Assembly: GCA_026195255.1 (NCBI GenBank)
Contig: JAPHSS010000012.1
Span: 1-64,000 of the forward strand
Direction: 5' to 3'
DNA from: Gammaproteobacteria bacterium
GTDB taxonomy: Bacteria > Pseudomonadota > Gammaproteobacteria > SZUA-229
Length of the DNA: 64,000 nt
Of the stretch, positions 54,368 through 56,837 are shown one piece after another (the first letter of the stretch is position 1; each line of letters begins with the position of its first letter). Under the pieces are notes generated by a model. The model worked only from the letters and a program-made list of their open reading frames with translations, ran no database searches and had not been told where the DNA came from. Both the position numbers and the translations under genes were made by a program.

Positions 54368-55132
54368 TCAGGCCGTTTTGCTCGGGCAGTCAGGAGTAGT
54401 GCAGTGGTCAGTTATTCCGGCTAATTCTTTTAGTTCACCAAGCTTGTGAATATTTACATATTTACGTTGCGTTGATAAAAGACCCTCACTCTGAAAACGG
54501 CTAAATGTGCGACTGATTGTTTCTATTGTGAGGCCCAGATAGTTGCCGATATCTTTACGAGACATGGTCAGATTAAACTCGGTTTCAGAAAAATTACGGG
54601 CTTTTAAACGGCTGGAGAGGTTAACTAAAAATGCAGCGAGTCTTTCATCGGCACTTTTTTGGGCCATCAACATGAGTAGTGATTGATCACCTGCAATTTC
54701 CTTGCTCATAATACGAAATAACTGGCGATGTAATTCAGGTATCTGACTGCTTAGTTCTTCTAATGAATCAAATGGTAACTCACAGAGACTGGTGGTCTCT
54801 AGCGCAATAGCTGAACAGGGGTGCTGGTTATCATGGATGGCATCAAGGCCAATAAGTTCACCAGGTAAATACAGACCAGTGATTTGTTCATCACCTTGTT
54901 CACTTTCAGTGAATGTTTTAATAGATCCGCTGCGCACCGCGTAAATAGATGTGAATTTTTCGCCACTATTAAACAGGTATTCGCTTTTGTGTAATGGGCG
55001 GCTACGTTTAACTATTTCATCGAGTCTTTCAATATCGCCTAAATCAAGACCAAGGGGCAGGCAAAGATCATGTAAGCTACAGGTTTTGCAAGCCGTTTTA
55101 ATAGCAGATAATTTAATTGATGTCGAAGTCAT
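54368..55132 (-). CDS. fnr: Fnr-type oxygen-responsive transcriptional regulator
   Basis: 254-aa Crp/Fnr regulator. The N-terminal iron-sulfur ligands are C15, C18 and C24 (CKTCSLHDLC), with the fourth probably C117 in TTSLCELPFD, matching E. coli C20, C23, C29 and C122. Cyclic-nucleotide-like barrel blocks follow. The recognition helix is IGNYLGLTIETISRTFSRFQ, with the E/S/R residues that read TTGAT-N4-ATCAA. A perfect FNR box lies 106 bp upstream, suggesting autoregulation. A second box lies 1 kb away at a putative RNA promoter. Confidence 0.93.
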   Translation of the reverse strand: MTSTSIKLSAIKTACKTCSLHDLCLPLGLDLGDIERLDEIVKRSRPLHKSEYLFNSGEKFTSIYAVRSGSIKTFTESEQGDEQITGLYLPGELIGLDAIHDNQHPCSAIALETTSLCELPFDSLEELSSQIPELHRQLFRIMSKEIAGDQSLLMLMAQKSADERLAAFLVNLSSRLKARNFSETEFNLTMSRKDIGNYLGLTIETISRTFSRFQSEGLLSTQRKYVNIHKLGELKELAGITDHCTTPDCPSKTA

Positions 55133-55237: not shown

Positions 55238-55251
55238 TTGATTTAAATCAA
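55238..55251. promoter_or_regulatory. Perfect FNR box upstream of fnr
   Basis: TTGATTTAAATCAA matches the consensus TTGAT-N4-ATCAA exactly. It lies between fnr and bolA, both on the minus strand, 106 bp ahead of the fnr start, and fits FNR autoregulation. Confidence 0.8.
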
Positions 55252-55340: not shown

Positions 55341-55649
55341 CTATTTTCCACCGCCCAGGCAAGGTGGTGATTCAGGTGCTGCGCCTTTTTCTGCCCATTC
55401 GTCAGGTGTCACAGTATGTAATGCCAGTGCATGAACTGGCCCTGCAAGCTCTTCTGCTAGTGCTTTATTGATTAAGCGATGACGAGCAACCAGCATTTTT
55501 CCATTGAACTCTTCAGTTACAGCAACAACTTTAAAATGAGATTCTGAGCCCGGCGGAACGTTATGCTTGTGACTCTCGTTAGTTACATCGAGATACACAG
55601 GGTTAAGTGTGGTTTGTAATTTTTCAATGATGTCGTCTTCAATGCTCAT
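55341..55649 (-). CDS. bolA: BolA family protein
   Basis: 102-aa protein with the BolA core: VTNESHKHNVPPGSESHFKV, ARHRLINKALAEEL and VHALALHTVTPDEW, ending SPPCLGGGK. This is close to E. coli BolA rather than IbaG. BolA proteins work with monothiol glutaredoxins in iron-sulfur handling and influence cell shape and biofilm genes. It lies 208 bp upstream of fnr and just downstream of the repeat-RNA terminator. Confidence 0.92.
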   Translation of the reverse strand: MSIEDDIIEKLQTTLNPVYLDVTNESHKHNVPPGSESHFKVVAVTEEFNGKMLVARHRLINKALAEELAGPVHALALHTVTPDEWAEKGAAPESPPCLGGGK

Positions 55650-55721
55650 GTCTTTTCGATTTCTTAAAAGTAAAGCATGATTTTAACAAGAATGGACTAC
55701 AATCGGTTCATTTTTTTTGAA

Positions 55722-55760
55722 CAAAAAAAAGAGCTGATCATCACGAGGTGACGACCTGCT
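55722..55760 (-). terminator. Strong intrinsic terminator of the repeat RNA
   Basis: A 14-pair stem (GAGCAGGTCGTCAC with GTGATGATCAGCTC, two G-U pairs and one mismatch, 3-nt loop) is followed on the minus strand by eight T residues. It lies 72 bp upstream of the bolA start, so bolA must have its own promoter after it. Confidence 0.88.
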
Positions 55761-55771
55761 CTTTAACTCCC

Positions 55772-55990
55772 CCCCAGGAGATTCAACATACCCCATTAAT
55801 CACTTCATCTGGAACGTGACCAAATATGGAGTCTTTTAACTTTTCTGAAGGAGTACGATGTTTTTTCGTATTCCCCCAGGAGATTCAACATACCCCATTA
55901 ATCACTTCATCTGGAACGTGACCAAATATGAGGTCTTTTAACTTTTCTGGGAGAGAACGATGTTCTTTCGTGCTCCCCAGGAGATTCTTT
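55772..55990. repeat. Tandem 101/102-bp direct repeats between bolA and bpt
   Basis: Unit 1 is 55772-55873 and unit 2 is 55874-55974, differing at few positions outside the hairpin. A partial third unit begins at 55975 (CCCCAGGAGATTC) and diverges after about 16 bp, though its hairpin persists. Differences cluster in the hairpin loops and outer stem. Confidence 0.92.
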
Positions 55991-56078
55991 GCAACTTGAG
56001 AAAATACGAGCTTCGTTCGTATTCACCCAGAATATTCTTAAAAACCCCATAACTGCAATGGGTTTCAACATGGTGTAA

Positions 56079-56120
56079 AGCATAGAGAGTTAGAAAAATT
56101 CTGGCGTTGATGTAAATCAA
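56079..56120 (-). promoter_or_regulatory. Class II FNR-type promoter (FNR box + -10)
   Basis: The FNR box, TTGATTTACATCAA on the minus strand, is perfect at 56107-56120. A -10-like TATGCT lies at 56079-56084. If transcription starts at 56072, the -10 occupies -12 to -7 and the FNR box centres at -41.5, the classic class II activation position. The box begins 10 bp after the bpt stop. Confidence 0.65.
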
Positions 56121-56129
56121 CAAAAAGTG

Positions 56130-56837
56130 CTAGTTGGTAAATGATATCCAGCTGTCCTGCCGGTATATTTCCAGGCTGGAAAATTTACGTTTATATTCCA
56201 TTTTTGGGTGACCATCAATCCAGTAACCAAGATACAAATGTTCCTTATTGTAAAGTCTGGCTAACCATACCTGCTGTAAGATGGCAAAAGTGCCTAAACT
56301 TCGTTTATGTTCATCCGGGTCGAAAAAAGTATAAACAGCGGAAGGCCCTGCATTCAAAAAATCAACAACTGCGACACATAATAGTTTGTCATTAAGGCGT
56401 GACTCAATAAAAATGCTGGTATTCCAGTTATTCAGTAAAAAATTTCTAAAATCGTCGGGTTGCGGATCGGCCATGCTGCCGTTTTTATGCCGGCTATCTA
56501 AATAACGTTGATATAGTGAGAAGTATTCATCTGTAAATTTAGCTGGTTTGAGATGAGTTGTTAGCTGTTTGTTGTTTTTAAGGCATCGACGTTGGTTTTT
56601 GCTAGCTTTAAAGTTTTCTATATTTATTCGACACGGCACACAGGCTGAACATTGTTTGCAGTGCGGTCGGTAAACGAATTCACCGCTTCTTCTAAACCCT
56701 TTACTAAGTAATAGACTATACAGGTCAGAGTACATTTCTACCTGTGGGTCAGGAATAAGGTTAGAGCTTTGACGATCGTTATAATAGCCGCATTCATGTT
56801 CTGCGGTTATATAAAGGTTAAGGTTGTGAGTGTTCAT
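56130..56837 (-). CDS. bpt: Aspartate/glutamate leucyltransferase
   Basis: 235-aa aminoacyl-tRNA-protein transferase of the N-degron pathway, which adds leucine to N-terminal Asp or Glu. N-terminal cysteines in HCKQCSACVPCRI, and blocks GFRRSGEFVYRPHC, YQRYLDSRH, VYTFFDPDEHKRSLGTFAI and LYLGYWIDGHPKMEYK, match the Bpt family. The length is normal. Its 3' end abuts the FNR-type promoter of the repeat RNA. Confidence 0.94.
   Translation of the reverse strand: MNTHNLNLYITAEHECGYYNDRQSSNLIPDPQVEMYSDLYSLLLSKGFRRSGEFVYRPHCKQCSACVPCRINIENFKASKNQRRCLKNNKQLTTHLKPAKFTDEYFSLYQRYLDSRHKNGSMADPQPDDFRNFLLNNWNTSIFIESRLNDKLLCVAVVDFLNAGPSAVYTFFDPDEHKRSLGTFAILQQVWLARLYNKEHLYLGYWIDGHPKMEYKRKFSSLEIYRQDSWISFTN

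Follow-up and report, generated by a model that had tools for sequence, protein, structure and literature searches.

What does the gap between bpt and bolA-fnr in this uncultured gammaproteobacterium encode? An earlier note on the window (the whole stretch of 64,000 nucleotides analysed here) had seen an FNR box, a -10 hexamer, direct repeats and a minus-strand terminator, and had read them as an FNR-driven noncoding RNA. We find all four features on the minus strand at 56120-55723, between bpt and bolA-fnr (Table 1), and comparison with related genomes strongly supports the reading that was made from the sequence: each of the 16 members that we identified keeps the box, its spacing, an invariant core and the terminator. 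That the element is an RNA gene, conserved and headed by a class II FNR promoter, has in our view a probability of about 0.9.

Table 1. Features of the bpt-bolA-fnr locus in the window
Feature	Position	Strand	Remark
bpt (arginyl/leucyl-tRNA-protein transferase)	56130..56837	-	
FNR box TTGATTTACATCAA	56107..56120	-	centre at -41.5 relative to the predicted start
-10 hexamer TATGCT	56079..56084	-	22 nt past the FNR box
Predicted small RNA, 350 nt in the window genome	55723..56072	-	ends inferred from promoter spacing and terminator
5' leader hairpin AAACCC..GGGTTT	56042..56065	-	
Hairpin unit 1, degenerate, beginning GAATATTCTGGG	55988..56037	-	
Hairpin unit 2, beginning GAATCTCCTGGGG	55887..55987	-	insert of ~51 nt inside
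Hairpin unit 3, beginning GAATCTCCTGGGGG	55785..55886	-	insert of ~51 nt inside
Invariant core CUCCUGGGGGGGAG, GGGG loop on a predicted 5-bp stem	55767..55780	-	same in all 16 members (7 genera)
Intrinsic terminator hairpin and U8 tail	55723..55764	-	stem 55764-55728, U8 to 55723
Extended -10 TGTTAAAAT, likely bolA's own promoter	55680..55688	-	downstream of the terminator
bolA	55341..55649	-	
fnr, oxygen-sensing regulator	54368..55132	-	

How would such an RNA be transcribed? The FNR box of the window, TTGATTTACATCAA, matches 10 of 10 conserved positions. All 16 members carry a box, with 10 of 10 positions matched in 11 of them and 9 of 10 in the other five, and in 16 of 16 the -10 hexamer has the form TAnnnT and lies exactly 22 nt from the box. 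With this spacing the box lies at -41.5 relative to the predicted start, as in a class II promoter, and the RNA of the window is predicted to start at position 56072. In one genus (g12) the FNR boxes are degenerate (TTGATCTNNCTCAA) and the spacing is nonetheless kept. The product of the window's fnr gene matches NCBIfam NF008365 with 308.7 bits (cut-off 228), is similar to the solved FNR and contains the cysteines C15, C18 and C24. We also note a second FNR box, TTGATTTAAATCAA, on the minus strand at 55238-55251, in the gap between bolA and fnr and ~110 nt before fnr, which suggests FNR autoregulation; the closest relative (G002) has a near-copy, and this box was not seen in the remaining members.

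Relatives were found by DNA search and by tblastn of the flanking proteins, and their intergenic regions were then read; the pattern common to them is an FNR box, a leader, CTCCTGGGGGGGAG and a terminator. The 16 members fall into seven genera, all from a single family of uncultured gammaproteobacteria, with one copy per genome, and their locus reads bpt-RNA-bolA-fnr wherever the contig covers both flanks (in the short contig of member L004, genome G003, a bpt match was not found upstream and the bolA-fnr flank alone is confirmed). Among 54 genomes of the family, a covariance model of core and terminator matched 16, once each, at 59-78 bits, while the next match scored 28.5 bits, the level expected of ordinary terminators. 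Conservation in relatives, which the earlier note had named as a check on its claim, is borne out by a predicted hairpin-bearing RNA in 16 genomes with an FNR box in all of them. An exact pattern scan (core, 28-58 nt, T6) of 84,980 species genomes returned 11 matches, every one an uncultured gammaproteobacterial MAG; nine correspond to records from the genome search, and the other two (L031 and L032) also show the order bpt-RNA-bolA-fnr. In a sample of 369 genomes of the class, those belonging to other families yielded no match; the taxonomic order is represented in the set by this one family only. Rfam gave no match for the window at the gathering threshold, and for eight homologous loci searched with E up to 5 its only matches were at chance level and either lay outside the element or had no relation to it. 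The window's genus includes the MAG SZUA-229; SZUA-229 members are described as sulfur-oxidizing vent bacteria (PMC9769843), and one of them as a tubeworm symbiont genus (PMC12045306). The element appears to represent an undescribed family of oxygen-controlled small RNAs in uncultured vent and sediment gammaproteobacteria. Two minor features of the bpt-bolA gap were seen in passing. One member, L009 (G007), has extra sequence past the RNA terminator (~1263-1344), in which Rfam sees a weak resemblance, below threshold, to Francisella FtrB. In four loci from genera that lack the RNA (L046, L047, L048 and L062) the gap appears to be occupied by a short reading frame with membrane-protein-like sequence.

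Which part of the RNA is under constraint? Conservation is strongest in the single-copy core CTCCTGGGGGGGAG (55780-55767), immediately 5' of the terminator, and not in the repeats. In all 16 members the 14-nt core CUCCUGGGGGGGAG directly precedes the terminator and is invariant at 14 of 14 positions, whereas the terminator stem varies with compensation: on the alignment of core and terminator, seven of the 16 predicted pairs show double changes, all of them in the terminator stem. In nearly all members the core is predicted to form a CUCCU/GGGAG stem that carries a GGGG loop; because the core is invariant, covariation speaks neither for nor against this hairpin. The U tail is long, mostly U6-U8, a sequence compatible with Hfq or ProQ binding and nothing more. 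The smallest member, L045, is predicted to be 62 nt long and to start 2 nt 5' of the core, which implies that core plus terminator suffice. These observations bear on the reading that the locus holds chance repeats or the remnant of a mobile element next to a fortuitous FNR-like box and has no function as RNA. Species do differ in repeat copy number, as that reading would have it, but seven genera keep the core, promoter spacing, terminator and locus, the stems covary and each genome has one copy; we consider it very improbable.

The direct repeats of the window are 102-nt units (55873-55974 and 55771-55872) with 91% identity, and a 13-mer, CCCCAGGAGATTC on the plus strand, occurs at 55772, 55874 and 55975, with a degenerate copy at 56025. 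The RNA is predicted to fold with -117.4 kcal/mol (z = -5.4), a stability reached by none of 100 shuffled sequences. The units of ~101 bp described by the earlier note are real as repeats, but the true repeat module is a hairpin unit of ~50 nt that starts GAATCTCCTG; an insert of ~51 nt in two of the window's units produces the longer period. Members of the window's genus have a predicted length of 193-350 nt and 2-5 such units, and in one of them, L004, Tandem Repeats Finder reports a period of 49 with 4-5 copies. Most members outside this genus are predicted at 62-138 nt, with a single core. The idea that the RNA was built by unit duplication accordingly stands for the window's genus but not elsewhere, where a single-unit RNA is found, and on sequence comparison the hairpin repeats are an elaboration confined to that genus. 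Small ORFs exist within the window, but they cannot specify a conserved product, since there are members of only 62-138 nt. The stem of the repeat unit is itself maintained: across 16 units from five species 84.8% of cells are paired, versus 36-49% when the partner is slid, six pairs are changed on both sides, and the covariation score is reached by none of 500 shuffles, a count that kinship among the sequences can inflate and that is read jointly with the slid controls. Most units retain GAAUCUCCUG, and a multi-site regulator, as first suggested, is possible. From the 62-nt minimal form to the 350-nt multi-module form, the family offers a natural series with one promoter layout, in which the relation between module number and small-RNA function is testable.

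How might the RNA act? We propose that under anoxia FNR would bind at -41.5 of the class II promoter, so that a free-standing small RNA is made, its 3' end set by the intrinsic terminator. The part that acts in trans would be the invariant CUCCUGGGGGGGAG hairpin adjoining the terminator: the core would open, and its CUCCU(GGGG) would pair with C-rich Shine-Dalgarno regions (complement CCCCAGGAG), thereby blocking translation. In the window's genus the repeated module of GAAUCUCCUG plus hairpin would supply extra copies of the same pairing surface. The case for mRNA pairing comes from the core sequence, whose 5' end, CUCCU, is complementary to AGGAG, and from the working mode of FnrS-type RNAs; we give trans-acting base-pairing via the core an even chance.

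The target search looked for CCAGGAGA 3-9 nt ahead of ATG in two sets of 10 genomes, and the set with the RNA showed no excess over the set without it (61 versus 69 sites). Among the sites with a real ORF, the complementarity is slightly longer in the RNA genomes (one-sided p = 0.035), and CxxCH proteins make up 6 of 24 with the RNA versus 0 of 33 without it, an observation made post hoc. Because it was spotted post hoc, the cytochrome enrichment was tested on 126 cytochrome c genes, and c-type cytochromes were rejected as targets: the mean duplex energy is -12.1 with the RNA and -12.8 without, and matches of at least 8 nt occur in 1 of 62 and 1 of 64 genes, respectively. Leaders of cytochrome oxidase subunit II were likewise set aside, with a 12-nt complement in one genome and ordinary Shine-Dalgarno sequences in the relatives that were read. 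Candidate pairing sites exist, but the CCAGGAGA-ATG sites of the 10 plus 10 genomes and the 126 cytochrome c genes reveal no conserved target class. The longest site seen, in one genome only (L161, G009, ~1495-1515), is a perfect 14-nt complement of the core at the ribosome binding site CCCCCCAGGAGATT of a 129-aa protein with no Pfam match.

Alternatively, the invariant hairpin may serve to bind a protein and not to seed pairing. LhrC and the RsmZ/CsrB RNAs are multi-module small RNAs with repeated hairpins, each carrying a recurring short sequence, and RsmZ-type RNAs sequester CsrA. The window RNA likewise repeats hairpin modules with a recurring short sequence; it differs in that the repeats are found in one genus, with one module elsewhere, and in that ANGGA is rare. 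A protein-titrating RNA, in which the core hairpin (with the modules, in the window's genus) sequesters a protein under anoxia, would account for a short invariant hairpin with a GGGG loop and for the multiplication of modules in one genus. However, a single core, as in most members outside that genus, is poorly suited to titration, and CsrA-type ANGGA motifs number 0-3 per RNA, with none in most. The sponge of CsrA type that had been considered for this RNA is not supported by these counts, and titration in general seems to us rather unlikely. Still less probable is a variant in which the invariant SD/anti-SD mini-hairpin is itself active: induced by anoxia, it would be a ligand of a protein or of the 30S ribosome, its valency tuned by the modules multiplied in one genus, instead of seeding pairing with a few mRNAs in the conventional way.

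A free-standing RNA under oxygen control has precedents. FnrS of E. coli and its relatives is activated by FNR bound to a class II site with its centre at -41.5 (summarised in PMC3032703), and the window RNA resembles it in being a predicted FNR-activated small RNA with a class II site at -41.5. The two differ in that the window RNA has no Rfam match and no sequence relationship was found. To our knowledge, the invariant CUCCUGGGGGGGAG core and the hairpin-repeat expansion are not features of FnrS. For the FnrS of Neisseria gonorrhoeae, which is anaerobically induced, a class II FNR site is predicted, along with a -10 element and a Rho-independent terminator; no sequence match between it and the present RNA was found, and the sections of the source consulted report no repeated hairpin architecture for it (PMC3032703). 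PhrS of Pseudomonas aeruginosa needs the FNR homologue Anr, is induced by low oxygen and encodes a conserved 37-aa peptide (PMC8395346), whereas the present RNA can be as short as 62 nt and has no Rfam match. The core-terminator pattern has no match outside the family in the 84,980 species genomes. Kinship with PhrS or FnrS was therefore discarded for want of sequence support; FnrS, offered by the earlier note as a precedent, is a fair analogue. By its sequence the element is probably an FNR-activated free-standing small RNA, an analogue and not a homologue of FnrS, that acts through its core.

Could the transcript act in cis instead? A cis role is possible, as all members belong to one clade and adjoin fnr. 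Every genome read that has fnr directly 3' of bolA also carries the RNA, and none of those lacking this arrangement does; the latter have a more distant FNR (~45% identity) located elsewhere. Such strict co-occurrence would be explained by a cis-acting leader, in which the FNR-started transcript and its terminator meter read-through into bolA-fnr, so that FNR regulates itself by attenuation. Yet the match of presence and gene order is also expected from shared descent; it agrees with the RNA having arisen once, in one clade, and alone is no proof of a cis link. Moreover, a conserved antiterminator between the core and a terminator arm is impossible, because the core is invariant and the arms differ among genera. 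A further argument against the leader is that bolA seems, from its upstream sequence, to have its own promoter past the terminator. An extended -10 of the type TGnTAAAAT lies between terminator and bolA in 12 of the 16 members, ~38-46 nt ahead of the bolA start region, and most relatives without the RNA, among those read, have a similar element ~19 nt before bolA. We consider the cis-acting leader unlikely. Finally, in the loci L046-L062, which lack the RNA, the position of this element ~19 nt before the ATG would leave the bolA mRNA with little or no leader.
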